Origin: Fidelibacterota bacterium
GTDB taxonomy: Bacteria; Fidelibacterota; Marinisomatia; Marinisomatales; UBA1611
Assembly: GCA_018649625.1 (NCBI GenBank)
Contig: JABIHN010000087.1
Coordinates: forward strand, 1 to 53,314
Reading direction: 5' to 3'
DNA: 53,314 nucleotides
Part shown: positions 28,420 through 53,314 of the stretch, in pieces
Numbering within the stretch: the first letter of the stretch is position 1
How the letters are laid out: the number at the start of each line of letters is the position of its first letter
Translations under genes and position numbers: made by a program
Notes under the pieces: generated by a model
What the model was told of the DNA's origin: nothing
The model's database searches: none
Seen by the model: only the letters and a program-made list of their open reading frames with translations

Positions 28420-30027
28420 CTAAAAAGTAATCCATTGTAGATCTACTGTAGGCACAGATGCTTCACCTGAAAAGTTTTTCCTAACAAATAAAGACGTTTG
28501 AGTATCTTTATAACTATCAGGAAGAGATAATGTATCTAAAATATCGGTATTCACCCAAACAGGATATTTTTTTCTTAATTTCCCCAATTGATCGTCAACC
28601 TCTTGTTGATGCTTTTCATATAATAATGCATTATAAACATCTTCTTTATATTTATAAAATCGGGTGGTATCAACATCAGCTAAATCCAATTCTTTCCAAC
28701 GATTTTTAAAATAGGACTCCATTTCACTCAATGTAACATCCAAATCTTTTACAACATTATGCCGATAAATATCATATATCCATTTCTTTTTCCAATGTTT
28801 AATATCTGTATATATTTTATCGTGTTCTCCTAGACTATCCCGTTCTGCAATGTCAACATATGTATCATTTTTTATCATTCTGCCGATTTCTGTAATCAAA
28901 ACAATTCTAAATGTTTCAATAGATTGATTATTATTTTTTAGTTCTCGACGATAATAATTCATATAACCTAAATAATCACGAACAGTTTTATCCCATTGGG
29001 TACTTGAAATTAATTTCTTATTTAATAATTGATTTATCTTAATCAAATAAGGTTTTGAAGTATCAGAAATTATTTCAACATGAGAGATGATATCGCCTCT
29101 TGATGGTAAACCATCTTTGAACCATTGAAAAAGTGCATCGGTAAAATCTTCAAGAACTGTTCCTTTTAATCTAATATTCATCGGAGTTAGGATTGAATCC
29201 AATATTGTATGTGAAATACTGTCTGTCTGTATATTATGAAGTCTCGCTAAAATACGTTTTCGCTTGGAACCATATTGTAATTCGTTGTCCAATATCCCTT
29301 CTCGATGAATATCAAGAATTTGAAATAAGGCATACCCATCACCATAAGGAATTGGTGTAGAAACCGCACCTATATTAAGATCTGAAATACTAGACAAATA
29401 TTTTGGATGAATCTCAAGATAATCAATCCAGTCTGTTTCATAATCTTTAATTGTTTGTACTTTAAATTCGTTTTTTTTAAGTATATCATTTACATAGTCT
29501 ACTAATGATTTTTGTTGAGCTTGATTATATACATTTTCTGCTAAATCTAAAGTTGGAATTGGCCAAATTAACATTCGCCATTTTACCGTTGATTTTTGAA
29601 TCGCATTTTGAATATCATTTTCTGAAACATTAACTCTACCATGGATATTCGACAGGTAAAATGCTTCTAATTGATTAGAGTAAAATCTCTGTTTAACTCT
29701 TTTTTGAACATAGGGATGTTTATCAAAACCCAAATGAGTACCTTCTAAGGAAAGCAATAGCTCATTAATCATATAATTTAGATATACGGTGCGAGGATCC
29801 CCACCCGCTTTCAAGGGCGAAAAACCCATTTCAAAACTCATTTTAAATTCATCCACAGTAATATTAGAGTTACCAACTTTTGCTATAATTACCTTATCAA
29901 GGTGTTTAGATAGTTGTTGTTTATTACATGATAAAAATAAGGGAATCATAATTCCTAAAAAAACTAGCTTACTTTCCTTTAACAAAATCTTTTTATAGGC
30001 AATATATATATATAAACAAAAATTCAT
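28420..30027 (-). CDS. SurA-like periplasmic chaperone lipoprotein (cassette A)
   Basis: 535 residues. A lipobox-like end of the signal peptide (IMIPLFLSC, Cys34) predicts a lipoprotein. The segment after it (VIIAKVGNSNITVDEFKMSF) is the typical N-domain of SurA/PpiD/PrsA-type chaperones, where a short strand (VG...ITVDEF) is followed by long helices. A weak PpiC-like region may lie at about 150-250 (WRMLIWPIPTLDLAENVYNQAQ ... PIPYGDGYALFQI), probably without isomerase activity. The ATG at 30027 gives a long n-region; a TTG at 29985 would give a normal signal peptide, so the start is unsure. It is the last gene of cassette A, 18 bp after the large surface protein. A likely role is chaperoning cassette proteins across the periplasm. 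Confidence 0.7.
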   Translation of the reverse strand: MNFCLYIYIAYKKILLKESKLVFLGIMIPLFLSCNKQQLSKHLDKVIIAKVGNSNITVDEFKMSFEMGFSPLKAGGDPRTVYLNYMINELLLSLEGTHLGFDKHPYVQKRVKQRFYSNQLEAFYLSNIHGRVNVSENDIQNAIQKSTVKWRMLIWPIPTLDLAENVYNQAQQKSLVDYVNDILKKNEFKVQTIKDYETDWIDYLEIHPKYLSSISDLNIGAVSTPIPYGDGYALFQILDIHREGILDNELQYGSKRKRILARLHNIQTDSISHTILDSILTPMNIRLKGTVLEDFTDALFQWFKDGLPSRGDIISHVEIISDTSKPYLIKINQLLNKKLISSTQWDKTVRDYLGYMNYYRRELKNNNQSIETFRIVLITEIGRMIKNDTYVDIAERDSLGEHDKIYTDIKHWKKKWIYDIYRHNVVKDLDVTLSEMESYFKNRWKELDLADVDTTRFYKYKEDVYNALLYEKHQQEVDDQLGKLRKKYPVWVNTDILDTLSLPDSYKDTQTSLFVRKNFSGEASVPTVDLQWITF

Positions 30028-30045
30028 AGAGTGTTAGGTTGAACT

Positions 30046-33000
30046 CTATTTAATAACCGCAAATTTTCCTCGTTTTATACCCACTCCTTTTGCTTCAACA
30101 ACAAAGAAATACATACCAAATGAAACTTCGGGACCATCTTCAGATGTAAGATTCCAATCATGCCTCCCATATTCTTCAATAGAGTTATGAGAGATTTTTT
30201 TAACTAACTTTCCACTAGCAGTAAAAATACTTATCTCACATTGAGGAGGTAAATTTACAAATTCAATTTTTCTGGCTGATCGACCACCCAAATCATAAAT
30301 AGATTCAAAGCTGCTTGCAACAACATAAGGGTCTGGCACCACATAAATATTCTTCATTTCTTTTTTAGCTTGTTCCTTAATCCATTCACCACCTTCAACT
30401 GTAAATCTATACACGTCATCTCGACTTGGATTTCTAGTAGTCCTAAATTTGTAAACATCACCTGGCGATGGAGGAATAACAGAATTTAGAGAATCAAATG
30501 GGTTTTTCAAAAATCGAAGTGACCATGAAAGTTTATAACTAGAAGTGGAATCTTTAGGAGGAATTGTGATAATGACTCGAGTACTATCCCATAATTGCCC
30601 AATTATATCAGGATTATTTTCTAACGTTGAATGATGCACATCATAATGGAATTGGACTTTCATTTGCTCGGGATTATTTGGGTCAGTTACGTTCCATGTT
30701 GTAAAGTTTAACGGATAAATAGGAATTAAGGGAGGGTAGGGGCTAATGGATGTATCTACGCCCATTTCATTTTCAACTCTTATTTCAAAATCATAGGGTA
30801 ATGGGATATAATTCACAGGTAATTCTATCCGATCAACTCTCAGATTTGAATTTGTCTCTGTCGACCATTTTTTCCACTCATGAGTCGTTCGCCCTCTATT
30901 ATTCCATGTAATAATATCAATACCTCTTGTTTTATCATTCCATGAACTTGGCAATGGCCAACTAAAGTCAAAATGAAGTCCTTGATAATTTAATCGTTCT
31001 AAAACCGGAAGAGACGAAGATAAAAATGTTCTGTAATCATCTTCATAGAAATCAAAAAGTGTATCTCCGGTCGTCAAGTTCATACACATCATTCCATTTA
31101 TTGTCCCAAATTCATAAGGGGAATAAACCTCTTCAAGCCATCCATTATCTGAAAACGTTATTTCATATTCATTTCCAAGCTTTACATTGTGACGATTAAA
31201 AACTTGAATATTATTTATAACACCTCTTGCGTACCCGGATACATGTTCAACCCGTGAGGTATCAACATTAGGGTCAGTATATCCGGCAGAAGTCTCTACA
31301 GGGACAACAACAGCAGTGTTTCTATCTCGATAAACAACTTCTCCAAGAGGATTCACCGTAATATTGAATGGAGATTCACTCGGCATCGCCTGTAAGGGAT
31401 AATACTCTGTCACTAATCCTCGATCATAAAAATCGTAATCATTACCAGCATCAATAGATGTTATAGCATAATAATATAATCTGCCATTATCAACCAGTGT
31501 GTCAATATATGAGTGTTTTAAACCACTATCTTTCCCCATATCATAATGTACACCTAATGCAGGGAAGGGAACTGGATGAGGCCCCTTCAATCCATCACTT
31601 TTATCATAAATAGCAAGTGGTTTTAATAAAATAACATTCCCAAAAGCATCAGATATTGTTTTGATATCTAAAAATTTAGGATTTGTACTTTTATAAACCC
31701 TATATCCTTCAAAATCATAACCAAAATACGGGTCCTTTGAAAACTCTGCTTCAGTATCCCAATATAATATAACTTTTTTGTCAAAGGCGGTTGAAATAAC
31801 AGTCGGGCGGATGGGTGGCGTAAGAAAACGATAGTTATTATTGTATATTTTTTGCATAGTTGATTTATTTCTAACAATATCATCATTATCCTCACCCATC
31901 AACATAGAAATAGTAAACCGTTTCCATTCATCTTTTTCAAGTTTGATGTTTCGGGCACCAAAAGTAAAAGCTATATTATCATCAGTCTCTTCAATATCAA
32001 TTCCTTCTTGGTTTAAATATCTTACCCAAAACAGATTATCACTTTTTAAATCTTTATTCTGCTCATAAACATAAATATGTTTTAAACCTGCTTGATCTTG
32101 TTCATCGATATCGGTTTGATCAAAATCAGGTTCTCCTGGATCCATAACATTGTTACATTCTGTCCCGTCAGAGTCCGGACCAGTCCAGCCATATTCGCTT
32201 GGTCCAATCCCATCGGATCCAACATCATTTCTTTCTGGCTCATAATCCAATCTGTCATTTTCATTAATATCTTCGCCAAGATCTAAAGCACCATTTAAAT
32301 TAATATCTTCGGTATCCCACTGCCCATTATTTTCTGAACCATCTTCATCTGGAGCAATATATAAAGAGTCATTTGGGCCGACTCTATCCAACCCAACATC
32401 TGCAAAAGGAAACCAATCACCGTCATTATCAATTCCATCAGACATTGATTCATCAATAAGGCCATCTGCATCGTCATCAATACCATTATAAGCTACACCA
32501 GGACTTTCTAAAAACCCAAATCCAAAAACTCCAATTTTTTGATAAGTATCTAATTGTTCAGGGAATGCATACCATTGGTACATAATATCAAATTCAAGTC
32601 GGCCTCCTTCACCTTCATGATCATATTCTGCAATAATATAATCTGCACGATTATATTCTGATTGCCCACCAATATTTGCATCAGCATATGTACCTGCAAT
32701 CAATCGAGGTAATTCATAATCACTGTAATTATGAATTTTATATACTGATACAATCAAATCTTCTGCCAATGGGTGAAACCAGGCATACGTTCTAGCTTCT
32801 ATTTCAAGACCTGCTCCTTGTATACCACCATCAGTCCAAGATGTGATATTCGGTGTCCCATCGTCATTTTTCATTGGCCAATATTTTTCTGATTTATAAT
32901 CATTCCAATGATCATTCTCATGATCATCCATCATATAATATGATTCCTGATCTGCAATTGTTTTTGTTCCATATTCACCGTTCCATAATCCTGCCCGAAG

Positions 33001-33720
33001 ACCAGCATTTGTTGTTCGTGGAGGTCGATTAAAATATGGTCTTGTATCTCCAGGATATGTCCCACCTGGCCAATATTCAGGCCAGGTACGCTTATCTGTA
33101 CTCATGGCTATACTTTTTATTATACTTTCTGGCGGGTCTAGATGATAATCTAATTGTCCATTAAAATTTAAATCTTCAGCAGGTGCTAATTCTCCATCAC
33201 CATTAATATCTTCATTAATACCCCAAATAAAACCATTTATACCACCATTATAGAATCCGGGAATCGGTGACCAGATTTGCTGGTGAGTTCGATCTGATGA
33301 TAATTGAGCAACTGAATGCTGGCTAATATGCGGTAAATAAGCATCACTAAGAATTGGGAACTGTTCGCCATCCCACTGTTCGGGTACAACTTGACCTTCA
33401 AATTGTGACATGTCAGTAACTAAAGTTCCAATATAAAAATTAAAGTAGCTTCCATAAGATAGTCCTTCACTTCCTGGCCATTTCATTGGAACCCCTGGAG
33501 ATATATTAGAATCGGTTATATTCCCTATATTCCAAACGGGAGAATAAATAAGGTTACGATTAAAAACACCTCTTGCCCAAAAACGAGCCCAATGCATAGG
33601 ATGAGTATCATACTGTGTATCATCCAATCCTTGAGGTAAAATGGATTGATTTATTAAAATCAAACATAAAATAAATTTGAAATTAATCCGTTTTTTTAAT
33701 TTAACAATGTTTTTAATCAA
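30046..33720 (-). CDS. Large secreted surface protein of cassette A with Asp-rich repeats
   Basis: About 1224 residues if translation begins at the TTG at 33720, which overlaps the upstream TGA (TTGA) and opens a clean signal peptide (KKRINFKFILCLILINQSIL). An ATG at 33771 would overlap the PorV-like gene by 55 bp and add 17 non-signal-like residues. After an N-domain with ARFWARGVFNRN and WPEYWPGGTYPGD, residues about 408-545 are Asp/Asn-rich repeats of thrombospondin-3/EF-hand-loop type (GIDDDADGLIDES, DINGDGE). A fibronectin-III-like region follows near 640 (VYKSTNP). The C-terminus (CEISIFTASGKLVKK ... RGKFAVIK) is FlgD/type IX-like without PNPFNP. It is a clear paralogue of the protein at 48729-52157. 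Surface location is inferred; no catalytic motif is recognised. Confidence 0.8.
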   Translation of the reverse strand: MIKNIVKLKKRINFKFILCLILINQSILPQGLDDTQYDTHPMHWARFWARGVFNRNLIYSPVWNIGNITDSNISPGVPMKWPGSEGLSYGSYFNFYIGTLVTDMSQFEGQVVPEQWDGEQFPILSDAYLPHISQHSVAQLSSDRTHQQIWSPIPGFYNGGINGFIWGINEDINGDGELAPAEDLNFNGQLDYHLDPPESIIKSIAMSTDKRTWPEYWPGGTYPGDTRPYFNRPPRTTNAGLRAGLWNGEYGTKTIADQESYYMMDDHENDHWNDYKSEKYWPMKNDDGTPNITSWTDGGIQGAGLEIEARTYAWFHPLAEDLIVSVYKIHNYSDYELPRLIAGTYADANIGGQSEYNRADYIIAEYDHEGEGGRLEFDIMYQWYAFPEQLDTYQKIGVFGFGFLESPGVAYNGIDDDADGLIDESMSDGIDNDGDWFPFADVGLDRVGPNDSLYIAPDEDGSENNGQWDTEDINLNGALDLGEDINENDRLDYEPERNDVGSDGIGPSEYGWTGPDSDGTECNNVMDPGEPDFDQTDIDEQDQAGLKHIYVYEQNKDLKSDNLFWVRYLNQEGIDIEETDDNIAFTFGARNIKLEKDEWKRFTISMLMGEDNDDIVRNKSTMQKIYNNNYRFLTPPIRPTVISTAFDKKVILYWDTEAEFSKDPYFGYDFEGYRVYKSTNPKFLDIKTISDAFGNVILLKPLAIYDKSDGLKGPHPVPFPALGVHYDMGKDSGLKHSYIDTLVDNGRLYYYAITSIDAGNDYDFYDRGLVTEYYPLQAMPSESPFNITVNPLGEVVYRDRNTAVVVPVETSAGYTDPNVDTSRVEHVSGYARGVINNIQVFNRHNVKLGNEYEITFSDNGWLEEVYSPYEFGTINGMMCMNLTTGDTLFDFYEDDYRTFLSSSLPVLERLNYQGLHFDFSWPLPSSWNDKTRGIDIITWNNRGRTTHEWKKWSTETNSNLRVDRIELPVNYIPLPYDFEIRVENEMGVDTSISPYPPLIPIYPLNFTTWNVTDPNNPEQMKVQFHYDVHHSTLENNPDIIGQLWDSTRVIITIPPKDSTSSYKLSWSLRFLKNPFDSLNSVIPPSPGDVYKFRTTRNPSRDDVYRFTVEGGEWIKEQAKKEMKNIYVVPDPYVVASSFESIYDLGGRSARKIEFVNLPPQCEISIFTASGKLVKKISHNSIEEYGRHDWNLTSEDGPEVSFGMYFFVVEAKGVGIKRGKFAVIK

Positions 33721-34796
33721 TTTGAACTTATCCCTATTGTAACACGACTGACAGATGATAAAATTGTCCAATCAGAATATGAGTAATCTACTGTAACTGC
33801 CATAGCGTGATATAATTTATATTTTAAACCGCAGCCTAAAGTAAGACCATCAGCCGCATAGTCTGCACCCAAAGAATGATATCCCGCTCTCAAATAATAG
33901 GACTTCATTATTTTTGCTTCTATTCCTATATCAACAGTTTCTACATCATTACTTGGGTGATTAAAATTTATTGCAGTTTGCACTGAATTATTCACACCCA
34001 TTTCCAGTTCATATGCTAAACCAAATCGGAACAAGACTGGTAATAGATATTTTTCTGTTTTTAATTGAATCGGTACATTATCAATATTAAAGTAATCGTC
34101 TTGTCGTCCATCAACATCCATACTTCGAGTTAAATCTCTCCCATCTAACTTAAATTCCGGGCCAAGATTATTAATAACCCCTCCAAGGCGTAACCCTTTT
34201 ATTGGCGTTTGAAAAAAGATAGAAACATCAACAACATTTGTTGAACCGGACTCATGCCAAATCCTTTGGCTAAAATATTTTGCTCCTAATCCGACTGAAA
34301 TATTAGGTGTAATTAAATATGCCCAATAAAGACCAACACATAAATCCATTGCAGAATACGATTCACCTGTCCCTTCTGGCCTAAATACTGTTCTAACCGG
34401 ATTTTCCCCATAATCCAATGCTGCTAAATGTAGTCCAATTGTTGATCGTGTCGGACGAATGGGTATAACTAAATCCACTACATTAAAATAAGTATCAACA
34501 AACCAATTTGTTTTGGTTGTTTGTAGCGAAAGTGATTTTATTCTTGAAATACCAGCGGGATTCCAATATAAAGCCGATGGATCTTCTGATATGGCTACAA
34601 AAGCTCCTCCAAGTCCTTCCGCACGAGCACCAACACCAATTTCCAACATGGCTCCGGCAGTTGAACCTCTTCTAGTCACATCCGTTTCATAAGCAATATC
34701 TTCCGGATCGGTCTGACAAAAAACCATATTTAATGTACAAATTATTCCTATTAATATAATTCTTAACCTATAAATATTTTTTACAAAATTATACAT
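33717..34796 (-). CDS. PorV-like outer-membrane barrel (cassette A)
   Basis: About 359 residues from the ATG at 34796, which overlaps the receptor stop as TGATG. A signal peptide ends NMVFCQ. The body matches PorV/PorQ-type barrels: AMLEIGVGARAEGLGGAFVA, the ISEDPSALYWNPAGI segment, alternating short beta strands and a C-terminal strand ending VTIGISSN. In type IX secretion PorV shuttles cargo to the surface attachment complex. Paired here with a receptor and one large secreted protein, it may serve that cargo specifically. It shares long segments with the barrel at 52171-53196 (RPEGTGE, SYSDW/AYADW). Confidence 0.87.
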   Translation of the reverse strand: MYNFVKNIYRLRIILIGIICTLNMVFCQTDPEDIAYETDVTRRGSTAGAMLEIGVGARAEGLGGAFVAISEDPSALYWNPAGISRIKSLSLQTTKTNWFVDTYFNVVDLVIPIRPTRSTIGLHLAALDYGENPVRTVFRPEGTGESYSAMDLCVGLYWAYLITPNISVGLGAKYFSQRIWHESGSTNVVDVSIFFQTPIKGLRLGGVINNLGPEFKLDGRDLTRSMDVDGRQDDYFNIDNVPIQLKTEKYLLPVLFRFGLAYELEMGVNNSVQTAINFNHPSNDVETVDIGIEAKIMKSYYLRAGYHSLGADYAADGLTLGCGLKYKLYHAMAVTVDYSYSDWTILSSVSRVTIGISSN

Positions 34797-37684
34797 CAAA
34801 ATTGTACCATAATTCCAAATTGGATTAACCGTGGACGAGAGTAATTACTTGGATTATAGTTTGCTTCATCTAACGAGAATTCATCTATTTTTAAAATTCT
34901 ATTATTTCTTAAGCGATTTATTTCCGGTAAATAAGCATTAGGCCCAGCTCTTCCAGTAATACTTCTCACAGAATTTTCATTTAATTGATTAAATATATTA
35001 AATACATTTATTATAAACCTGCTATTATATCCAAATAATACGGAAGATCTTACTAGCTTCAGGTCTACTCCCCAGCGAACTGGCTTACGTCCCACATTAT
35101 CCCACTCACCCCCTGGTAATGAAATTGATGGATCCAATGTTGAAGGTGAATACGGTAATCCTGAACCTAGTTGATTAACTAAACTAATATTCCATTTTTT
35201 ATTGGGACGATACGACATTGTTACATTTAAAGAATGACGCTGATCCCAATCTAAATACTTTATTTTCCTTACTGAAATTGTATATGAACCCATTCCTGGA
35301 CCAGAGAGAATACTTATATTTCTCAACATTTCAGGACTCGACGCACTACCTTTTGCCAACATATAAGTATAATCTACACCCGTATTAAATTTTCTATCAG
35401 GTGACTGATAATTAAATGAGAGTGTTGCGCCAGTGGAATTGCCATATTCTTTATTTACATATCTGTAAAATGTAGCCGCATTACTTAGGGTTAATATTTC
35501 TATACCCAACAAATCTTTAATATCTTTATGAAATATAACAAGCTCCATCGCCAAGTTACTGGTTATTTCTTGTTGATATCCCACTTCGTATTGGACTGTA
35601 TTTTCAGGTTTTAAATTGGGGTTCCCAATTCTAGACCCAATAATACTAAACTGATTATAGTGTGAAAGAACCGGATTTTGATACATTTTTTCATAGCTTG
35701 GTATTTGGAAAAAATGCCCATATGATAATCTTAACGCACCACTTGTAGATATTGGGAACGATAATCCAAAACGAGGACTAAATTTAAATTTACTTTTTGC
35801 TTGTTCATAATAACCATCTGCCCCAACAAATTCCGGGTATACTATCGAATAGTCAGGTGCCCAACGATCCTTTGGATTAAAATAATCTAATCTTAGCCCA
35901 GCATTTAAAATAATTTTACCAAGTTCCAATGATGTTTGAGTAAAACCTGATGCTTCCAATGGTTTTCGTGTATAATCTATATAGAATAAGTGATCAAATG
36001 CACTATCAGGGTGAGTCTCTCGTAACTGTAAATTACCAAATTCATAATTGGCAGTAGAATCACGAAATACATTATAGGGTATTTCAAACTCAAAAATTTC
36101 TGATCTCGACCACGGAAACTGCATAGTTTCATATCCTAATTTTTCGCGCATGGGCGAATTCAAATAATGCAATGCATGTTTTTTTATTTCAAAACCGCTT
36201 TTAATTTGAATGATATTATTAATTTGCCACGTTATATCTCCATTTGTTAAATGAATCAGTTGTTCATCATAATTTCGGTTCCAACTACTAATACCACCAA
36301 AATCATAACCTGTTAATTTCGCAGGGTCCCAAGCATTGACTGCTGTTGTTTGATATCGAGGGTCATTAGAATCCTTAAAAGTATATCGTTGGGAATTAGA
36401 TTTTTGTAATGAGTACCTTAAATTATAAAATATATTTATAGATGGGCTATGTGTCATAACCAGCATATATGACAAATTTTGATCAGCCCAGAATGAATTC
36501 CCATCTGGGCAAAATCGCCAAGAGGAACTATACCCTTTTCCATGAGAATCATTATAAAATGAATTGAGTGAAAATGTTAAATTTGATGATGGTTTGTATA
36601 CAAGTTTTAAATTTATATTAACTGTTTTTTCCCAATCCATGGGAATTATTTTGCCATCACCAGTATGTAATGAATCCGGAATAGGAATAACAATAGGATC
36701 TTTTGGATCAAAACTTGCTGAATACCATTCTCGATAAACTTCAATTTCCCAACCATCTTCAGGCATATACCTTCTTTCGCCATTTAGCCAACCATTTGAA
36801 TCAACTATCCGGCCATTCAAAAAAAATCCAATCTTACCAATTTTTTTTATGTTTAATAATGGTCCTGATACGGAAATTTTCATTTCTTTTTCTGACATAG
36901 GTTGAAACGTATCCAATGCTATATATTGAGGCTTATTAGAAGAATAGAATCCACCTATTAATTGTTCTATACTACCTTCATATTTTGCCCCGGGCATTTT
37001 AGTGACCACGTTAACTACACCCGATTGAGCAGAGCCATATTCGGCATTGAATGTTCCAGTAATTACTTGGAGTTCTTCAATAAAATTATTCTCAATTTCA
37101 ACCATAGACCCACCGGACTGACTGTAATTATCGGTCACAGGAATTCCATCAATCATATATGATATTTCTCTAGATCTTCCGCCTCTGATATGTAGATTAC
37201 CACTCGCATCAGAAACAACACCTGCTTGTAATTGAATTATATCTTCCAAAGAAGTAACAGGCAACAATTCAATTTCACTTCGATTAATATAAGATGCTGA
37301 ATTTGTGCGATCTAATTCAACAACTTTTCTTTTTGCAACAACGGTTATTTCTTCTCCTTCAATGATTGTTTCTCTTAAATAGAATTCTAATCTAGTCGTA
37401 CGATCTACCGATACATTTACATCTATAATGGTATATTTTTTATATCCAATCATTGATGCACTAACAGAGTATTCACCCGGTGGTATATTGATAATCATAA
37501 AACTTCCTTCTGTGCTGGAAGCAGCACCAAGCATAGTTTCACCAATTATAACATTAACGCCTGGAAGTGGTAAACCCGTTTTTTCATCTAAAACTATCCC
37601 ACCGATTTTACCCGTTGACCCTGCAATTAAATATCCAAAAAATATTATTGAACTAAACAGAATTTTCATTATTTTTTTCAGCAT
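34796..37684 (-). CDS. TonB-dependent receptor with carboxypeptidase-regulatory N-domain (cassette A)
   Basis: 962 residues. Signal peptide (about 1-21), then a carboxypeptidase-regulatory-like domain (about 22-105, GLPLPGVNVIIGETMLG), a plug domain (about 125-235, ending FNAEYGSAQSGVVNVVTK, with RGGRSREISYMIDGIPV) and a 22-strand-type barrel. This is the SusC-like/type IX-associated receptor build, but no SusD gene is next to it. Known receptors of this class import ligands using TonB energy; some act in protein export or surface assembly. It starts 5 bp after the PpiC-type lipoprotein and its stop overlaps the PorV-like start, so all are coupled. Confidence 0.92.
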   Translation of the reverse strand: MLKKIMKILFSSIIFFGYLIAGSTGKIGGIVLDEKTGLPLPGVNVIIGETMLGAASSTEGSFMIINIPPGEYSVSASMIGYKKYTIIDVNVSVDRTTRLEFYLRETIIEGEEITVVAKRKVVELDRTNSASYINRSEIELLPVTSLEDIIQLQAGVVSDASGNLHIRGGRSREISYMIDGIPVTDNYSQSGGSMVEIENNFIEELQVITGTFNAEYGSAQSGVVNVVTKMPGAKYEGSIEQLIGGFYSSNKPQYIALDTFQPMSEKEMKISVSGPLLNIKKIGKIGFFLNGRIVDSNGWLNGERRYMPEDGWEIEVYREWYSASFDPKDPIVIPIPDSLHTGDGKIIPMDWEKTVNINLKLVYKPSSNLTFSLNSFYNDSHGKGYSSSWRFCPDGNSFWADQNLSYMLVMTHSPSINIFYNLRYSLQKSNSQRYTFKDSNDPRYQTTAVNAWDPAKLTGYDFGGISSWNRNYDEQLIHLTNGDITWQINNIIQIKSGFEIKKHALHYLNSPMREKLGYETMQFPWSRSEIFEFEIPYNVFRDSTANYEFGNLQLRETHPDSAFDHLFYIDYTRKPLEASGFTQTSLELGKIILNAGLRLDYFNPKDRWAPDYSIVYPEFVGADGYYEQAKSKFKFSPRFGLSFPISTSGALRLSYGHFFQIPSYEKMYQNPVLSHYNQFSIIGSRIGNPNLKPENTVQYEVGYQQEITSNLAMELVIFHKDIKDLLGIEILTLSNAATFYRYVNKEYGNSTGATLSFNYQSPDRKFNTGVDYTYMLAKGSASSPEMLRNISILSGPGMGSYTISVRKIKYLDWDQRHSLNVTMSYRPNKKWNISLVNQLGSGLPYSPSTLDPSISLPGGEWDNVGRKPVRWGVDLKLVRSSVLFGYNSRFIINVFNIFNQLNENSVRSITGRAGPNAYLPEINRLRNNRILKIDEFSLDEANYNPSNYSRPRLIQFGIMVQF

Positions 37685-37688: not shown

Positions 37689-39089
37689 TTAGTCTATTAT
37701 ATTAACTTTATTTTGCAAATTCTTTTTTTCTAAAGCAACTTTAAGGGCTCGATCTAATTGATGACTATTTAATTTATATCTATATTTAGATTTTAATTCT
37801 GATTCTAGTATTTGTTTAAACTCTTTTTCGGTATCCAAATGTAATCGTCTAAGTTCAAATCGAGTTAATTCTTTTATATTTTTGGTAGCTATAGAATTAA
37901 TTTTTTCATCTGATTTTAATTTCACTTCCTGATAAAAAAGTTCATTTTTCAAAAGAGTTTCATAGATACTCTGAAGTTCATTATCTATATCATTCTCTTT
38001 ATGAAGATTCAATTTCCGTGCATGTAAAGAAAATAGGTTTTCCTGAGCAATCGCGTCAACGCGAAGCCTGAAATCAAACATATCAGTTGGTCGTTTCTTT
38101 TTATTTTCATAAATATCTTTTAAATAAAGTGTATCGTCATTAAAAGTTGCAACGATTTCATTTAATAATTGATCTGATATGTTTTTCAATAAAAATGCCT
38201 TATCATCTGTAATATTTAAATTTTGATTTATAATCATATCAGTTATCTTTTCATTTTCCTGATAACTAAACATAGGAGCCATTTGAATAAATCTTAACTT
38301 TGCTTTTTCTTTAATATAGTGCCGTCTTGTTCTATAAAGAGTTTTCCATATTTTGTTTTTGATTTCTTCAAAAGGCGGGGTGGATACAACTCGTTTTTCG
38401 CCTTTAAATAATATATAATAACCTGCTACACCTAAAAATGGCTTGGAATAGGAATAATCCTTTAATGTATCCATTACAGCACGAATAATTTCATCACCAA
38501 TAGATTCTCTTATTAGATAACCTAAATCTCCGCCTTTTTTATTCGATGCTATATCCTGAGAAAACTTTTTGGCCACTTCATGAAATGAATCACCATCTTC
38601 AAGTAAAGTATAAATAAAGTAAATAGAATCTTTTTGAGATTTTTTAAATTCTTGTTTTGACTTTTCAAAAAACGGCCTAAGAATATATTTCATATTATAT
38701 TGAAGACTATACTCCGAATAAAATCTATCTATAAGGCTATCAGTTATAACTGCATCAATAATTTCTGTCCTCATATATCGATAAAATAAAACTTTATTTT
38801 GACTATGGTTTAATTTTTTTATAAAACTTGGATTATTATATATTTTTTTATCCGTTGCATCTATTAAAGCAATTTTCTCAATTGCTTTATCGGAAACGAT
38901 TTTAATTAAATTTTCTTCAGTTGGTAATTCATTAAGTTTTTGTTTAGTACTAAGTAAATAATGATCTACGTATTCCGTTACTGAAACATCACCTCCATTA
39001 AATGATACCAAAATATCTTCATTTTGTTCTTTTGAGCAGTTCGTTAATAAAAAAACGAAAGCTATAATTAATAAAATTTGATTATACAT
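37689..39089 (-). CDS. PpiC-type (parvulin) peptidyl-prolyl isomerase lipoprotein (cassette A)
   Basis: 466 residues. The signal peptide ends in a lipobox (FLLTNC, Cys18). A SurA-like helical N-domain precedes a parvulin domain at about 140-245: the DGDSFHEVAKKFSQD, KGGDLGYLIRES and PFLGVAGYYILFKGEKR segments are the usual PpiC landmarks. The remainder (about 260-466) is helical, as in PrsA/SurA-type foldases. It probably folds or escorts the receptor, barrel and surface protein encoded directly downstream. First gene of cassette A; a TATAAT hexamer lies just upstream of its ATG on the coding strand, but I am not sure it is the promoter. Confidence 0.85.
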   Translation of the reverse strand: MYNQILLIIAFVFLLTNCSKEQNEDILVSFNGGDVSVTEYVDHYLLSTKQKLNELPTEENLIKIVSDKAIEKIALIDATDKKIYNNPSFIKKLNHSQNKVLFYRYMRTEIIDAVITDSLIDRFYSEYSLQYNMKYILRPFFEKSKQEFKKSQKDSIYFIYTLLEDGDSFHEVAKKFSQDIASNKKGGDLGYLIRESIGDEIIRAVMDTLKDYSYSKPFLGVAGYYILFKGEKRVVSTPPFEEIKNKIWKTLYRTRRHYIKEKAKLRFIQMAPMFSYQENEKITDMIINQNLNITDDKAFLLKNISDQLLNEIVATFNDDTLYLKDIYENKKKRPTDMFDFRLRVDAIAQENLFSLHARKLNLHKENDIDNELQSIYETLLKNELFYQEVKLKSDEKINSIATKNIKELTRFELRRLHLDTEKEFKQILESELKSKYRYKLNSHQLDRALKVALEKKNLQNKVNIID

Positions 39090-45843: not shown

Positions 45844-48723
45844 ATGAAAAAGTTTTCCACTTATTATATTCTATTATTTATAGGATTATCTTCAACACTT
45901 TTTGCCGGCACAACCGGGAAGATATCTGGACAAATTGTAAGCGCAACTTCGAATGAAGGTCTAATTAGTGCAAATGTTATGCTTCTAGGGACCAATTTAG
46001 GCTCATCGACGGATATAAATGGATATTATAGTATCATTAATGTTCCACCTGGGACTTTTGAAATGCAGGTGCATTACATGGGATATGCAACGCATCGAAT
46101 ACAAAATATCAAAGTTCATATAGATCGAACAACAACTCAAAATGTAAGCCTTTTGGAAGAATCTGTTGAGTTGAATGAAATAATTGTAAAAGCTGAACGC
46201 CCAATTATTGAAAAAGATCGAACTCATTCATCTACCAAAGTAACATCAGACATGGTTGATCAAATGCCCGTTACAGAAATATCTGAAATCATCTCTCTAC
46301 AACCAGGAGTTGTAAACTCAGGAGGTTTGCATTTTCGTGGTGGGCGAAGTAGAGAAGTTGCCTATTTGATTGATGGTGTTCCTGTCACCAATTCATTTAG
46401 TCAGGGAGGTGGAAATAATATTCCCATTGAAAATGCAATGGTGGAAGAATTAGAAGTAATTAGCGGAACATTTAACGCTGAATATGGGTCTGCTCAATCA
46501 GGAATTGTAAATATTGTTACTAAGCGAATTGAGCATGAATTCCACGGAACCGTCAAAGCATATATGGGTGATTGGTTTAGTAACCAGTCAGATATTTTTC
46601 TTGGGATTGATGATTATAATCCTCTTGGTGAATTAGATAAGCAATTCACATTATCCGGTCCTTTTCTACATAAAAATATGGGATTCTTCATTTCAGGGAG
46701 ATTCAATAATTGGGAGAGCAAGGAATGGTATGAACGAAGATATAATATAATTGATGGGTGGAAAATTTCGGCTTATGAACGCTGGTTCCGAGAGCATAAT
46801 CCGTCAGAATACGCCGCCTCGCAAGGGATTCTAATTCCAGATTCATTAAAAACAGGTGACGGGGCTAGAGGCCCACTCCGAACTGGAAAACAAAATTCGA
46901 TGACGGCAAAATTATCGTGGCTACCTACAGAAAAAATTAATTTTATTTACCAATTCTTTGGATCAAATTCTAACAGCAACGGTGGTGGAAGTTCGCGACG
47001 ATATCAGCCGGATGGTTCTTCAAAGAGTATTAACTGGTCAGGGTCTCACATTATTTCATTCAAACATTTTCCCGCCCAAAACTTTTTTTACAACATTACC
47101 CTTTCCTATCAACATAATAATAGTGAATCTTATTATCGGAAAGATAATAAAGTTGCTCTTTTTCCAGGAGATACAGGCATTCAACTCATTAATGCAAATG
47201 TAAGTGGATTTTCTTTAGGTAGCACCGATGGATTTTATACAGGAAAAGACGGGAAAGGATATCGAGATCTTTACTTAGTTAAAGGTGATTTTAATTGGCA
47301 AATTAATCGAAGAAACTTTATAAAAGCAGGATTTGAATTTAAACAACATGACGTAAATACCTACTCTTGGGGTGTTCGGCAAACTAATGTTTGGAAAAAT
47401 TCACAATGGCCAAATCAATCAGATTTAAATGGTGTTAACCACACATTTGACGCCTATTGGGATTCTCTTGAAACATATTGGCAAGATTGGGAATCTATTT
47501 ATGACACTGTTCGTTTTGTCGCAATTGCTGATTCTGAATACACACTTTGGCGTGATTATACTATTAAGCCAAAGGAAGCAGCACTATATGTTCAAGATAA
47601 AATTGAATTAGGAGAAATCATAATAAATGCAGGTATTAGGCTAGATGCTTTTTTCCCTAATGAAGTTTATCCTATCCAACTACGCACAGAAGCACGAAAT
47701 CTAGGTTCACCCCAAAATCTAAAACCAGCATCCACAAAATTACAATTCAGTCCAAGGATTGGACTATCATTTCCCATCTCTGATAGAGGTGCTTTTCATG
47801 CATCTTACGGACATTTTTTCCAAATGCCAGCATTTCAATATATGTACAATGAGCCATTATATATATTAAATAAACTTCAATTAGAAGGCCGAACTTTAGG
47901 GAATGCCGATTTAAAAGCTGAAAAAACAATTGCTTATGAAATTGGAATTCAACAAGGAATTACAAAATCTGTTTCTATTGATATTACAGCCTATTATAAA
48001 GATTTTAGGAATCTTCTGGGTATTGAGCGTATTTCAACTATTGATGCTGTAGGATATAATCGGTTTATTAATCGTGATCATGGGAATACAAAAGGAGTAT
48101 CAATTGGGTTAATGAGTCAAGGCAATGATTTTATCACTGGTGGACTCAATTATACCTTATCGTATGCAAATGGAAGTTCATCTGATCCTAATTCGTTATT
48201 TCTAATTCAATCATCCACGCAATTAGGCGGAGAAGATGATGCATATGTTGAAAGGAAAATCCTACCACTTAATTGGGATCAACGACATACTCTAAATCTG
48301 TTTGTCAATATTGGACGACCAAATGATTGGAGCGTTGGTCTTATTTCCTATCTAAATAGCGGAACACCCTATAGCCCTTCTTTTGTAGAACGATTTGATA
48401 TAGCAAGTCGGGAATATAGAAATCTAGGTCGTAAACCTTTAAGGTGGAGTGGAGACATTCAAGGTAAAAAACATTTTAAAATTTTAAAATATCATTCAAT
48501 CATTTTTATTAAAACAGATAATTTATTAGATCATCTTAACCATGAATCCGTGTTTTCTTCAACGGGAAAAGCCGATCAAATTGCTAGGCTACCTGAAAAT
48601 GAACTTCTCGATAAAGAGAAGCTCGAACAAGAAGGGCATTTCACAATGAATGAAATTGATATTCGCCCCGGTTACTTTTCAGCCCCTAGAAATATTCAAA
48701 TTGGACTTGAAATAAAATTCTAA
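45844..48723 (+). CDS. TonB-dependent receptor with carboxypeptidase-regulatory N-domain (cassette B)
   Basis: 959 residues, paralogue of the receptor at 34796-37684. Signal peptide (about 1-21), carboxypeptidase-regulatory-like domain (about 23-110), plug (about 125-230) with FRGGRSREVAYLIDGVPVTN and FNAEYGSAQSGIVNIVTK, then the barrel, ending FSAPRNIQIGLEIKF. Shared segments with the A copy include TGDG, NAGIRLD, SYGHFFQ(I/M)P, LNWDQRHTLN and YSPS. Substrate is unknown. No SusD-like lipoprotein follows; the next gene, 5 bp away, is the large Asp-rich surface protein. No convincing Shine-Dalgarno precedes the ATG (run of A/T), as for several genes here. Confidence 0.92.
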   Translation: MKKFSTYYILLFIGLSSTLFAGTTGKISGQIVSATSNEGLISANVMLLGTNLGSSTDINGYYSIINVPPGTFEMQVHYMGYATHRIQNIKVHIDRTTTQNVSLLEESVELNEIIVKAERPIIEKDRTHSSTKVTSDMVDQMPVTEISEIISLQPGVVNSGGLHFRGGRSREVAYLIDGVPVTNSFSQGGGNNIPIENAMVEELEVISGTFNAEYGSAQSGIVNIVTKRIEHEFHGTVKAYMGDWFSNQSDIFLGIDDYNPLGELDKQFTLSGPFLHKNMGFFISGRFNNWESKEWYERRYNIIDGWKISAYERWFREHNPSEYAASQGILIPDSLKTGDGARGPLRTGKQNSMTAKLSWLPTEKINFIYQFFGSNSNSNGGGSSRRYQPDGSSKSINWSGSHIISFKHFPAQNFFYNITLSYQHNNSESYYRKDNKVALFPGDTGIQLINANVSGFSLGSTDGFYTGKDGKGYRDLYLVKGDFNWQINRRNFIKAGFEFKQHDVNTYSWGVRQTNVWKNSQWPNQSDLNGVNHTFDAYWDSLETYWQDWESIYDTVRFVAIADSEYTLWRDYTIKPKEAALYVQDKIELGEIIINAGIRLDAFFPNEVYPIQLRTEARNLGSPQNLKPASTKLQFSPRIGLSFPISDRGAFHASYGHFFQMPAFQYMYNEPLYILNKLQLEGRTLGNADLKAEKTIAYEIGIQQGITKSVSIDITAYYKDFRNLLGIERISTIDAVGYNRFINRDHGNTKGVSIGLMSQGNDFITGGLNYTLSYANGSSSDPNSLFLIQSSTQLGGEDDAYVERKILPLNWDQRHTLNLFVNIGRPNDWSVGLISYLNSGTPYSPSFVERFDIASREYRNLGRKPLRWSGDIQGKKHFKILKYHSIIFIKTDNLLDHLNHESVFSSTGKADQIARLPENELLDKEKLEQEGHFTMNEIDIRPGYFSAPRNIQIGLEIKF

Positions 48724-48728: not shown

Positions 48729-51700
48729 ATGAAAAATAAAATAATATTTCTTTTATTAGTGTTTACAACTGTCGGATCTTCCTTTTCTCAAGATATTGAA
48801 AAGGATAAATATTTATCAAATCTACAGAATGGAACTCGTAGTCAAATTCGATCCTTCACAACAAATAAAACTACAATAAGTGAAGAAGGCAATGATCGCT
48901 TTTTGCGATTTTCAATTCACGATGGAAACCTGATTACGGGTGGTGTTACAAATTCGGGATTAATGTCCCACCATTACGTTTCAGGAAATCCTGAAATTTC
49001 ATGGCCTAAAGGACCAAAAAAGATATCCTATATACATGGTGCAGTCTTTTATGTCGCTGCCGAAGTCGTAGATGCGAATGGAGATACAATCCATATTGTA
49101 TCTGATAATTATCGTCGATCATCAATCGAAACTTCCGATGATTTATCACATTTTTATGCTTTTATGCCTCTTCCAAAATATTTCAACATGGACCAACCTG
49201 AAGCCTATGAAACTCCAGAAATATATGGTATTTCTGAAGATGTAGGTGAAGATGGAATCCCCAATACAAATGACTTTGGCGAAGGGGATGGCTTACTTCA
49301 ATTTGCTGAAGATTTTAATGGAAATAATATTTTAGACATCAGCATGCAAAATGAAGTGGGATGGTTTGCAATTAGTCATAGAAAAGAAACATGGCCACAG
49401 TATTGGCCTCCTCAATCCTATCCTGGAGATGATCGAGAAATCGGTGATGAAATACCCGGAGTACGTGCTGGGCGTTGGAATGGTGAATACGGTGCGTATA
49501 TGCGTGCAGATCAAGAATCTTTTTATGCCATGGATGATAGTGAAAATGATGAATTTGAATATTATCCTATTGAAGGAGACTCTCTCGATTTCCCTGAAGG
49601 GAAAAGAGGACTTGGAATAAAAGTGGATGTGCGTTCTTATCAATGGAGCGCTCGTTTAGCGGAAGATATTTTTATCAGTATTTACGATATTACCAATGAA
49701 GGTAAAGATTTAAATAATTGTATAGTTGGAATGTATATTGATCCTGACATGGGCGGGTCAAGTAATGGCGATGATGCAGATTTTGATAATATCGCTGATA
49801 TTACCTATTCATGGAATAGAACTGGTATCTCAAATAATGGACTTCCAACTGGCTATTTTGGATTTGGTTTTTTTGAAAGCCCCGGACTTGCAAATGATGG
49901 AATCGACAATGATGACGATGGGCTAATCGATGAAAGTCAAAATAATGGTATTGATGATGATGGAGACTGGGTTGGCTGGGAAGATGAAAATGAAAATGGT
50001 GTTTGGGACAGTGAAGACTTGAACTTCAATTTAATTCTTGATTCAGATGAAGATATTAATGAAAATGGCCTATTAGATATTGAACCATTAAATGATGATT
50101 TAGGAGCAGATGGTCTAGGTCCAAATTATGATGGTTATACAGGACCTGACCAAGGTGAAGCCAATGGAGTCCCTGATTTAGGCGAACCAAATTTTGATTT
50201 TACGGACAATGATGAATCTGACCAAGTTGGGTTAACATCATGGTATTTAAGAGATGTTGATAATACCATGGCAGATGATGAGCAGTATTGGGACGTAGAG
50301 ATTCAACCTGGAACATACATCATTCGTCCTGGTTATCAGCGAGATATTGCTTGGACATATGGAAGTGGATTTGTAGAGTTCGCCGGTGAAGAAAAAACAC
50401 ACCGATATGCAATCGCACTTTTATTTGGAAATGATCAAGATGACATTCTCCGAAATAAAAGGACCATGCAAGTTATTTACGATAATGATTATAGTTTTGC
50501 TAAACCACCTCGTACACCAATTGTAAAAGCCACTGCTTATGATAAAAGAGTTGTTTTAACATGGGACGATAATGCAGAAAATTCTCGTGACCCTATTTAT
50601 GGAAAAGATTTTGAAGCTTACTACGTTTATAAAAGTACTGATCCTACTTTTTCAGAAATAAAAACCATTACAGATGCTTATGCTAATCCACTTCTTTTCA
50701 AGCCTGAAGCTATTTATGACATCAAAAATGGTCTTGGCGGAATTCACCCAGTAAATATTGGCGGTGAAATGGGATCGGATAGTGATTTAGGCGTTTCTTA
50801 TAACATGGGGTCTGATAGTGATTTGAAACATTTTTATGTGGATTCAACTGTTACAAATGGAAGAACATATTACTACGCAATTGTTTCGGTGGATCGCGGA
50901 CATCATTATTCCTTTTATCCAAGCCTTACCAATTTAGAAAATATCAGTGATATATCTCCTACAGAATGTAGTGCAAATATTCAAATTGACATTTTAGGAC
51001 GCGCAATTGCTTTTGATCGAAATACAATAGCCATCACTCCTGAAGAAACTTCCGCTGGATGGATTTTCCCAACAGTTCAAATAGAAAAAGTTAATGGTGT
51101 TGGGACGGGAACAGTCGAAATACAAATCCTTGATCCTACTAAAATAAATCATGGAACTTCCTATAGATTAGAATTTGACGATGATGGAAGTTTTGAACAA
51201 TTTGATTCAACTCATTTTACAGGACTCACTTCCCAAATGGTTTTGTATTCAAATACAGAAGAAAAGTTAATGGGATCTGTTACTGATCCTAACTCAAATC
51301 CCTTGGCTCAAGAATTTATATATGATGGATTTCAAGTCATTTTACATAATGATGGGACAGGAATGAATGAAGCTGGATGGATTTCGGGATTATCATCATT
51401 AACTGCTCATGACATTACAAGTGGCTTTGGTGGTTTACAATTAAGAAGAGATTACGAAATACGAGTGAGTACAGTTGGAGCCGATACATCTGTCGTATCT
51501 TTGCCTGTCAGTACAAATTTTCAAATTTGGGATGTGACAAAATCAGATAATGAATTCCAAGTAGATTATATGTATACACCTAATATTTGGCCAAATGACC
51601 CAACAAGACGATATTTGAAAAATGGTGACCAAATAAAAATCGTTAATAATATTGACGACCAGATTTTTTTATGGCAATGGCTTATGGCTTTTCCGGAAAA

Positions 51701-52157
51701 TGCTGATTCAACATCCATGACCATGCCTGATAGTGGTGATGTTTACTCTATCACAACCTATAAACCTTTTGATAGATATGATGCATTTGAGATTTCTGTC
51801 ACTGGAAATTATATATCACAAGATCTTGCAAAGAGTGAAATGGATAATATTTATGTTGTGCCGGATCCATATATATCAGTTAATCCATTAGAAAGAAAAG
51901 TCATAAATCAAGAAGAAGGACGTGGCGATCGTCGAATTGACTTTGTTAATTTACCCCAGGAATGTGATATTTTTATTTTTACCTCATCGGGTAAATTGGT
52001 GCGAACACTTCAACATTCTACATCCGAAAATAATTCTCGTAAAAGTTGGGATTTAAGAACAAAAGATGGCTTAGAGATATCCCATGGTATTTATTTCTAT
52101 ATTGTTGAATCTTCAAAATTTGGTTCAAAAAAAGGTCGTTTTGCAGTTATTAAATAA
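48729..52157 (+). CDS. Large secreted surface protein of cassette B with Asp-rich repeats
   Basis: 1142 residues with a signal peptide (about 1-20, ending VGSSFSQ). It matches the cassette A protein along its length: WPQYWPPQSYPGD, RAGRWNGEYGAY, the ADQESFYAMDD(S/H)END block, FGFGFFESPGLANDG, then Asp/Asn-rich loops (about 391-505: GIDNDDDGLIDES, DINENGLLD) likely to bind calcium. A fibronectin-III-like part starts near 597 (VKATAYDKRVVLTWDDNAE). The tail is CDIFIFTSSGKLVRT ... KGRFAVIK, the same variant sorting-like domain as in A. It differs in gene order, coming before rather than after the PorV-like gene. Function unknown; export to the surface through the neighbouring barrel is an inference. 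Confidence 0.82.
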   Translation: MKNKIIFLLLVFTTVGSSFSQDIEKDKYLSNLQNGTRSQIRSFTTNKTTISEEGNDRFLRFSIHDGNLITGGVTNSGLMSHHYVSGNPEISWPKGPKKISYIHGAVFYVAAEVVDANGDTIHIVSDNYRRSSIETSDDLSHFYAFMPLPKYFNMDQPEAYETPEIYGISEDVGEDGIPNTNDFGEGDGLLQFAEDFNGNNILDISMQNEVGWFAISHRKETWPQYWPPQSYPGDDREIGDEIPGVRAGRWNGEYGAYMRADQESFYAMDDSENDEFEYYPIEGDSLDFPEGKRGLGIKVDVRSYQWSARLAEDIFISIYDITNEGKDLNNCIVGMYIDPDMGGSSNGDDADFDNIADITYSWNRTGISNNGLPTGYFGFGFFESPGLANDGIDNDDDGLIDESQNNGIDDDGDWVGWEDENENGVWDSEDLNFNLILDSDEDINENGLLDIEPLNDDLGADGLGPNYDGYTGPDQGEANGVPDLGEPNFDFTDNDESDQVGLTSWYLRDVDNTMADDEQYWDVEIQPGTYIIRPGYQRDIAWTYGSGFVEFAGEEKTHRYAIALLFGNDQDDILRNKRTMQVIYDNDYSFAKPPRTPIVKATAYDKRVVLTWDDNAENSRDPIYGKDFEAYYVYKSTDPTFSEIKTITDAYANPLLFKPEAIYDIKNGLGGIHPVNIGGEMGSDSDLGVSYNMGSDSDLKHFYVDSTVTNGRTYYYAIVSVDRGHHYSFYPSLTNLENISDISPTECSANIQIDILGRAIAFDRNTIAITPEETSAGWIFPTVQIEKVNGVGTGTVEIQILDPTKINHGTSYRLEFDDDGSFEQFDSTHFTGLTSQMVLYSNTEEKLMGSVTDPNSNPLAQEFIYDGFQVILHNDGTGMNEAGWISGLSSLTAHDITSGFGGLQLRRDYEIRVSTVGADTSVVSLPVSTNFQIWDVTKSDNEFQVDYMYTPNIWPNDPTRRYLKNGDQIKIVNNIDDQIFLWQWLMAFPENADSTSMTMPDSGDVYSITTYKPFDRYDAFEISVTGNYISQDLAKSEMDNIYVVPDPYISVNPLERKVINQEEGRGDRRIDFVNLPQECDIFIFTSSGKLVRTLQHSTSENNSRKSWDLRTKDGLEISHGIYFYIVESSKFGSKKGRFAVIK

Positions 52158-52170
52158 ATCTACCAATCCA

Positions 52171-53196
52171 TTGCATTCGCTAGGTCTCGTTGTTTTATTG
52201 CTAATCAATTTTGAACCACTCTCTGCCCAGTTTGATTCAAATGTATCAGGTGTAGGAACAACATCTGCTTCATTTCTCGAAATTGGAGTAAGTGCTCGAG
52301 CCATGGGAATGGGTGGTGCATATACTTCTGTCATTGATGGTCCAGCTGCTCTCTCTTATAACCCTGCAAATATAGTTTGGTTAAATGGCACTCAAGTTGA
52401 ATTCATGCATAACCAATGGTTTATTGACGCATATCATGATTTTGTTGGTGTTGTCATACCTTTATCCGGGTTAAGGTCTTCCATTGGATTTCAATATGTT
52501 GGTTTAAATTATGGTGATCAACCTGTAAGGACTATAAATCGTCCTGAAGGTACTGGAGAGTTATATTCTGCAGGAGATTATTCATTAGGAATAACATTAG
52601 CAAAAGCACTTACAGATCGGTTTTCATTTGGATTATCACTAAAATATATTGAAGAACGTATTTGGAATACTCGAGGTAGCGCTCAAGCAATTGATATGGG
52701 AATTTTTTACAGATCCCAGTTAGAAGGTCTTCAAGTGGGTATGAGTATCAGCAACTTTGGCTCTGAAATAAAACTAATTGGGCGAGATTTAGATACCACA
52801 GTTGACCCCGAAGATGACAATGAGAATGTAGACAATGTGCCTACAACATATCAAACAGATTCATACCCTCTCCCTATATTATTTCGTGCTGGCTTATCCT
52901 ATAAAATGAAATTGGGCTCAGTTGGGAATTTATTAACAACCATAGATGTTTTACATCCATCTAATACAACAGAAAGTATAAACATTGGCTCTGAATTTGG
53001 ATTTCAAAATATGTTTTATATTCGAGCTGGTTATAATAATCTATTTGAAGAAAATGCAGAAAACGGAGTAACAATTGGTGGTGGTTTGGATATGTTTTTC
53101 CAAAACGACTCCTGGGGGTTACGATTAGATTATGCCTATGCTGATTGGGGAATGTTAGGCTATAGCTCCCGTATTTCTTTAGGATTAGTGTTTTGA
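52171..53196 (+). CDS. PorV-like outer-membrane barrel (cassette B)
   Basis: About 341 residues if started at the TTG at 52171, which places HSLGLVVLLLINFEPLSAQ as signal peptide right after the upstream stop (52157). A TTG at 52141 is the other option. The only in-frame ATG (52084) would overlap the large surface gene by 74 bp and give an implausible N-terminus. PorV features: SFLEIGVSARAMGMGGAYTSV, DGPAALSYNPANI, NRPEGTGELYSAGDYSLGI and a final strand ending SRISLGLVF. It closely follows the cassette A barrel in layout. Probable cargo-shuttle role by analogy with type IX PorV. Confidence 0.85.
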   Translation: MHSLGLVVLLLINFEPLSAQFDSNVSGVGTTSASFLEIGVSARAMGMGGAYTSVIDGPAALSYNPANIVWLNGTQVEFMHNQWFIDAYHDFVGVVIPLSGLRSSIGFQYVGLNYGDQPVRTINRPEGTGELYSAGDYSLGITLAKALTDRFSFGLSLKYIEERIWNTRGSAQAIDMGIFYRSQLEGLQVGMSISNFGSEIKLIGRDLDTTVDPEDDNENVDNVPTTYQTDSYPLPILFRAGLSYKMKLGSVGNLLTTIDVLHPSNTTESINIGSEFGFQNMFYIRAGYNNLFEENAENGVTIGGGLDMFFQNDSWGLRLDYAYADWGMLGYSSRISLGLVF

Positions 53197-53201
53197 TCTA
53201 A

Positions 53202-53314
53202 ATGTTTTATCTCCCCTTTTACCTTTTATTTTTATCTTTTACATCTCTACAATGCACCAACTCTAAACCTGAGTTAGATCAGCAAGATAATATTGTAGCA
53301 ACCATTGGAAATAC
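53202..53314 (+). CDS. Lipoprotein, N-terminal part only, probable SurA-like member of cassette B
   Basis: Cut by the window end; 37 codons are visible. ATG at 53202 lies 5 bp after the PorV-like stop. The signal peptide ends SFTSLQC with a lipobox-like Cys18, and then DQQDNIVATIGN appears. This matches the start of the SurA-like lipoprotein of cassette A (VIIAKVGN after its lipobox) in position and pattern, so a peptidyl-prolyl isomerase/SurA-type chaperone probably continues beyond the window. The assignment rests on few residues and on context. Confidence 0.6.
   Translation, partial: MFYLPFYLLFLSFTSLQCTNSKPELDQQDNIVATIGN

Follow-up and report, generated by a model that had tools for sequence, protein, structure and literature searches.

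A TonB-dependent receptor, a large surface protein and a PorV-family barrel form a recurrent cassette in Fidelibacterota that suggests a SusCD-like uptake complex

The window analyzed here is the entire contig JABIHN010000087.1 (C107, ending at position 53314; 53,314 nucleotides) of a Fidelibacterota bacterium, whose 2.39 Mb genome is assembled in 115 contigs. It carries two gene cassettes on opposite strands, A and B, each with a TonB-dependent receptor, a large surface protein ending in a predicted C-terminal domain (CTD) of the type IX secretion system (T9SS) kind, a barrel of the PorV/PorQ family, and a foldase lipoprotein (Table 1). The open reading frames (ORFs), strands, and coordinates of the original prediction were all correct, and both cassettes are intact. 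The Plug, barrel, and CarboxypepD_reg domains are present in both receptors (Pfam). The surface proteins were described as Asp-rich, and they contain 9.2% and 10.7% Asp against a window median of 6.4%. The true start of the A surface protein probably lies between 33597 and 33720, and that of the B barrel probably lies further in than 52084.

Table 1. Coordinates of the genes of cassettes A and B in the window (aa, amino acids; AF2, AlphaFold2)
Feature	Coordinates	Strand	Evidence or remark
A PpiC-type peptidyl-prolyl isomerase lipoprotein PPI466 (466 aa)	37689-39089	-	PF00639 1.7e-11, above cut-off
A TonB-dependent receptor, CarboxypepD_reg + Plug	34796-37684	-	PF00593, PF07715, PF13715 above cut-off
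A PorV/PorQ-family barrel, inferred cognate shuttle/anchor	33717-34799	-	NF033709 166 bits vs cut-off 90
A large surface protein, cassette-type T9SS CTD	30046-33771	-	1183-1241 aa depending on start
A SurA/PrsA-type foldase lipoprotein, predicted (535 aa)	28420-30027	-	profile vs PDB, AF2 + Foldseek
A-associated secreted protein, tandem CBM9-like domain, generic T9SS CTD	39179-41245	-	PF18962 above cut-off
B TonB-dependent receptor, CarboxypepD_reg + Plug	45844-48723	+	Pfam domains
B large surface protein (1142 aa), multi-beta-sandwich, Asp-rich repeats, cassette-type T9SS CTD	48729-52157	+	
B PorV/PorQ-family barrel, inferred cognate shuttle/anchor	52084-53196	+	NF033709 170 bits vs cut-off 90
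B foldase lipoprotein start, cut by contig end	53202-53314	+	reads MFYLPFYLLFLSFTSLQCTNSKPELDQQDNIVATIGN

Each A protein was thought to have a B counterpart. This holds for the receptor, the surface protein, the barrel, and the foldase start, but no counterpart of PPI466 is visible in B. The switched order of barrel and surface protein between the two cassettes is real, and the A order is also found in a relative from the genome scan described below (locus L055) and in the A orthologue of G009, a genome from another genus of the same family. A PPI466 homologue is linked in both of these. The 535-aa protein of A is a predicted SurA/PrsA-type foldase with a parvulin domain within an N-terminal chaperone architecture; its family profile (A7) matched HP0175 (2.9e-22), SurA (7e-17), and PrsA (1.6e-16) in the PDB, and the best Foldseek matches of its AF2 model (pLDDT 85.6) were SurA/PrsA/PEB4. 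The gene after the B barrel was likewise expected to be SurA-like, and the evidence agrees with this. The last 113 bases of the contig encode MFYLPFYLLFLSFTSLQCTNSKPELDQQDNIVATIGN..., a lipoprotein start that resembles the A SurA-like protein; the cut gene opens as a lipoprotein (...SLQCTNSKPELDQQDNIVATIGN), and the B orthologue of G009 has a complete foldase lipoprotein of 465 aa, 5 bp after the barrel.

A scan of the surface-protein alignment against 84,980 species genomes gave at least 563 confirmed relatives. The cross-phylum counts given here rest on the best 79 loci among the relatives listed, which are labeled Calditrichota, Ignavibacteria, Neomarinimicrobiota, KSB1, WOR-3/Stahlbacteria, Gemmatimonadota, Rhodothermia, Latescibacterota, Delongbacteria, Kryptonia, and others; some labels of metagenome bins (Deltaproteobacteria or Actinomycetota, for example) may be wrong. 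For the 90 surface-protein genes of these loci, the receptor is no more than two genes away in 82 of the 85 testable cases and the barrel in 80 of 87. As anticipated by the original prediction, the families are found together across genomes, with both receptor and barrel near the surface protein in 74 of 82 testable loci from many phyla of the Fibrobacterota–Chlorobiota–Bacteroidota (FCB) type. The order receptor, surface protein, barrel was found in 72 loci, and the A order in one (L055); the latter, in which the barrel precedes the surface protein, is an older and rare variant. A member of the foldase-lipoprotein cluster was present within six genes in 22 of the 79 loci. Thus, of the fixed set first proposed, the TonB receptor, the large surface protein, and the PorV-family barrel are the invariant core, whereas the foldase characterizes the A/B clade, recurs elsewhere, and is optional. 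Some of the relatives differ in size or layout. The surface proteins of L087, L091, L093, L096, and L129 (about 1565-1604 aa) form a large-cargo subfamily, and L087, L091, and L093 carry tandem cassettes. L144, L145, L151, and L164 share a conserved variant, in which a surface-type protein, a CTD protein (about 665-890 aa), and one of about 500 aa precede a TonB receptor, and the PorV gene comes directly after the receptor. L040 encodes tandem proteins of 756 and 760 aa (1354-3624 and 3653-5935) with matching start and end sequences and the cassette-type CTD, and no receptor or barrel adjoins them.

Since the scan began from the surface protein, the converse test was begun from PorV paralogues. 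The sample consisted of 40 of the stronger matches, taken from 14 other genomes of the phylum; fainter ones, including that at 12888-15623 of the window, lie outside it. Thirty-two had a surface protein and a receptor upstream, four had a receptor directly upstream, and four were cut by contig or region ends; none was contrary. Genomes of the phylum contain up to about twenty places that match the PorV-family profile. The genome of the window itself has at least eight cassettes or fragments, and most intact ones are ordered receptor, surface protein, barrel.

The three core families also have a shared history, another expectation of the original prediction. Their distance matrices are correlated (Mantel r 0.73-0.84 for 72 cassettes, 0 of 2000 permutations as high). 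When species effects were removed by shuffling partners within genomes only (54 same-genome pairs), no tested pair of parts had its observed value equaled in any of 2000 shuffles, and the CTD-PorV pair was highest (r = 0.84). All three families are multi-copy in these genomes, and ordinary members of large families could therefore have come together by chance or through a general clustering of outer-membrane genes. The constant order over phyla, the lack of any exception in the converse test, and the shared history within genomes stand against this explanation, to which we give practically no credence.

Cassettes A and B are not products of a recent local duplication, because all three core genes of each are nearest to a different foreign locus among the matches listed (L055 for A and L049 for B). 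They are old, separate lineages. In L055, the whole A set is repeated behind a LacI regulator, with both foldases and a CBM9-type secreted protein related to that encoded at 39179-41245; the latter has a 73% identical orthologue at the same place in G009. The A surface protein orthologue of G009 is 86% identical, and the A order is kept. The B orthologues of G009 are 81% (surface protein, the nearest found) and 77-82% (receptor) identical. No close match to the B protein was found in genomes of the same genus, and an 81% identical one is present in another genus, which indicates that the cassettes are patchily distributed.

The genome encodes the type IX translocon SprA (PF14349, E 7e-32), which is present in 20 of the 21 genomes searched, and PorU-type C25 peptidases (PF01364) at three places (best E 1e-75). 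The GldM model had no match in this genome and none in the controls either, hence it is uninformative. A PorV gene comes immediately after 110 of 132 genes for proteins with the cassette CTD but after only 1 of 122 for proteins with generic T9SS CTDs in these loci, and the A surface protein scores 123 bits with the cassette CTD profile versus 40 bits with the generic one. The surface proteins carry a distinct CTD class of their own, probably of the T9SS kind. The B surface protein falls below the type A CTD cut-offs (TIGR04183/PF18962; 15.4 bits against 23 and 13.6 against 27), and the A protein has no match to either model at E 0.1. Weak CHU_C matches at the C termini (E 0.0014 and 0.0074) are below the cut-off, and A has a weak FlgD_ig match as well. 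In the PDB, the only T9SS matches of the cassette surface-protein profile were PorU (E 0.019) and PorZ (E 0.63), weak and located at their C-terminal domains. The AF2 model of the B surface protein (pLDDT 83.5, pTM 0.79) is mostly beta-sandwich, and no SusD-like fold was seen. Its best PDB match by fold was PorZ (E 1e-6, TM 0.09), and PorU was also found, with low TM-scores; a viral fold library gave generic Fn3/tail beta-sandwich matches only.

The barrel family profile (A2) matched nothing in the PDB but the PorV of the SprA complex (4e-25), and both barrels pass the curated PorV/PorQ-family cut-off (Table 1). They are not PorV proper (NF033710 equivalog, 49 bits against 250 for both). They match the PorV_fam, PorQ, PorV, and PorV2 models and have no match to the PorP/SprF models at E 0.1. 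In Flavobacterium johnsoniae, a single PorV shuttle has been described for all type A cargo of the T9SS (PMC12618676), and the cognate SprF barrel of type B cargo is often encoded next door and bound at about 1:1 (PMC12618676, PMC9143113). PorU and PorZ retain their CTDs and remain attached to PorV and PorQ, and cognate barrels have been suggested to shield CTDs from cleavage (PMC10202324).

Here, we propose that the cassette encodes a complex for nutrient uptake that resembles SusCD, in which the type IX system exports the binding protein and a dedicated barrel of the PorV type retains it. We regard this reading of the whole chain as fairly probable. In the periplasm, the foldase lipoprotein would hold the large surface protein in a state competent for folding. 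A cassette foldase is plausible because the SprA translocon also includes a peptidyl-prolyl isomerase of unknown function (PMC10994853). The surface protein would then be exported through SprA via its CTD, a step strongly suggested by the CTD and by the presence of SprA in the genome. Its own PorV-family barrel would collect the CTD and stay bound as the anchor, with no handover to the general sortase, by analogy with the PorZ-PorQ, PorU-PorV, and type B CTD-SprF pairs. Anchored over the TonB receptor of the same operon, the protein would bind a specific nutrient, often a glycan, and pass it into the receptor. The gene set with its conservation and co-inheritance, the CTD class, the presence of SprA, and the identity of the foldase are observed, whereas we infer export through SprA, complex formation, anchoring, uptake, and substrate.

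Two other readings of the same proteins were weighed. The surface protein could be an adhesin or enzyme scaffold, exported by the T9SS and anchored by PorV, that attaches the cell to polymers, with the receptor importing products separately and no stable complex being formed. Type B adhesins are paired likewise with their own SprF barrel (PMC12618676, PMC9143113), the surface protein is a long multi-beta-sandwich, and orphan surface proteins without a cassette exist (e.g., L039 and L077). An adhesin would have no need for a lineage-matched receptor in nearly every locus, however, and the receptor is linked as tightly as the barrel (82/85) and coevolves with the body of the surface protein (partial Mantel r 0.37, 0 of 500 permutations). 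We therefore consider the adhesin unlikely. A dedicated export or surface-assembly unit, as suggested in the original prediction, would have the TonB receptor energize or shape the export or assembly of the large protein. Each cassette does have its own cargo, its own barrel, and, in the A/B clade, its own foldase. This reading has become less likely, and we now consider it improbable, since SprA is already present for export, together with PorU-type C25 genes, and the neighbors are catabolic. TonB receptors are importers in established cases.

The uptake reading draws on the gene neighborhood. A Pfam survey of 194 close same-strand neighbors of the cross-phylum loci found generic T9SS-secreted proteins (58), LacI regulators (17), ABC permeases (12), GH94 phosphorylases (9), PF10091 glucanase-type proteins (9), solute-binding proteins (8), CBM9 (8), GH16 (4), and GH3 (2). 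Neighbors across phyla are thus regulators, enzymes, and transporters of carbohydrate use, which indicates nutrient uptake. Of the 18 LacI genes in the 14 genomes of the phylum, 9 have a same-strand PorV gene no more than 14 kb downstream, as against 0.33 expected, with the 14 kb limit chosen after the data were seen. GH94 was directly adjacent to PorV in only 1 of 8 cases in the phylum genomes, and the GH94 linkage therefore comes mainly from other phyla. In the genome of the window, genes for a sodium symporter and a GH38 mannosidase come after the cassette on contig C14. The contig of the G009 B orthologue encodes a GlcNAc 2-epimerase, a 3-keto-disaccharide hydrolase, GFO/IDH oxidoreductases, and a DapA-type aldolase, and a regulator-propeller protein is encoded after the A orthologue in G009. 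These neighbors of the nearest orthologues suggest sugar or sugar-acid derivatives as the substrates of A and B. Near cassette A, the window (23189-25616 and 20970-22940) also encodes a short KpsF/KdsD-type sugar-phosphate isomerase, a ribokinase, a DapA/NanA-type aldolase, and a PhoPQ_related hydrolase with a generic T9SS CTD.

Several observations weigh against a glycan-uptake complex in which a cognate barrel holds the surface protein. Neither standard T9SS CTD model recognizes the cassette CTD above its cut-off, and by fold the surface protein matches beta-sandwich modules, at TM-scores of about 0.1. The partial correlation between CTD and PorV, after control for the other parts, is only 0.12, and a simple division of labor, with the CTD following the barrel and the body following the receptor, is therefore not established. 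No LacI was found in the genome of the window, and hence none beside its cassettes, and no glycoside hydrolase adjoins cassettes A and B. PhnW-PhnX, for 2-aminoethylphosphonate catabolism, adjoin B-like cassettes in L043 (20670-22643) and L049 (1028-2973), loci close to B; substrates therefore need not all be glycans, and some B-like cassettes may import phosphonates. An apparent penicillin amidase and a carboxyltransferase of the KipI/KipA type follow the cassette in L054 (15204-17958) and L072 (15192-17949). A GntR-type regulator was also seen near PhnW/PhnX and the B-like cassette in L049, and the amidase and carboxyltransferase genes of L054 and L072, both labeled Neomarinimicrobiota, hint at a non-sugar substrate.

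The set had been described as lacking SusD and matching no named system, and this is borne out: Pfam found no SusD match among the cassette proteins of A and B, and no matching named system was found. Over the 21 genomes, SusD (PF07980) occurs in at most one place per genome, which in the genome of the window is on contig C3, outside the window. The cassette resembles the SusC-SusD and RagA-RagB pairs in having a TonB receptor with a CarboxypepD_reg domain beside a large cell-surface protein, in being multi-copy and patchy between species, and in having LacI, glycoside hydrolase, and transporter neighbors in many relatives. In contrast, its partner protein is a beta-sandwich protein with a T9SS CTD and not the helical SusD lipoprotein, a PorV-family barrel is nearly always added, and the receptors are far below the SusC model (TIGR04056; 68 bits for A and 70 for B against a cut-off of 368). 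The type B CTD systems with PorP/SprF barrels, such as F. johnsoniae SprB-SprF and Porphyromonas gingivalis PG1035-PorP, share a large T9SS cargo with its own shuttle/anchor barrel gene, usually adjoining (PMC12618676, PMC9143113), but the cassette barrel belongs to the PorV/PorQ family, the TonB receptor belongs to the set, and the cassette CTD, which matches PorU and PorZ in the PDB, does not reach the type B model cut-off. The PorZ-PorQ and PorU-PorV attachment complex likewise joins a surface protein with a CTD, known to be retained in PorZ and PorU, to a PorV/PorQ barrel (PMC10202324), but these are parts of the secretion machine itself and not repeated operons with a TonB receptor.

The published table of the Rhodothermus marinus xylan locus Rmar_1067-1081 lists LacI, GH43, Xyn10A, a TonB receptor (Rmar_1070), a Por-CTD hypothetical protein (1071), and a hypothetical protein (1072) (PMC6987092). 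Compared by this table only, the layout is that expected of the cassette, and Rmar_1070-1073 may be an unrecognized instance of it, although a separate SusCD pair is present in the same locus and the cassette was not recognized by the authors (PMC6987092). No published description of the cassette was found in the open literature, subscription papers not being covered. The cassette is apparently widespread but undescribed, and it probably does the job that SusC-SusD does in gut Bacteroides. More tentatively, it could be a three-protein uptake architecture, with a PorV-family barrel instead of a lipid anchor, that replaces SusCD where SusD is almost absent and is widespread in FCB-type phyla outside the Bacteroides model. 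If so, many of the PorV-family barrels of this phylum, up to about twenty per genome, would be private anchors of uptake complexes, and T9SS cargo would divide by CTD class into a generally handled group and a group retained by cognate barrels. Large sets annotated as hypothetical protein, PorV/PorQ family, and TonB receptor would become predictable nutrient-uptake systems, and LacI and glycoside-hydrolase neighbors would give testable substrates, e.g., beta-glucans beside GH94/GH16.

Elsewhere in the window, the ORF at 12888-15623 encodes a PorV-like barrel segment followed by an apparent region rich in tetratricopeptide repeats; it is a distant PorV relative with no adjoining TonB receptor. 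The operon at 284-5878 resembles type IV pilus/type II secretion genes (PilM/N/O- and secretin-like), and its first ORF seems to fuse an ExeA-like ATPase to a PilM-like part.

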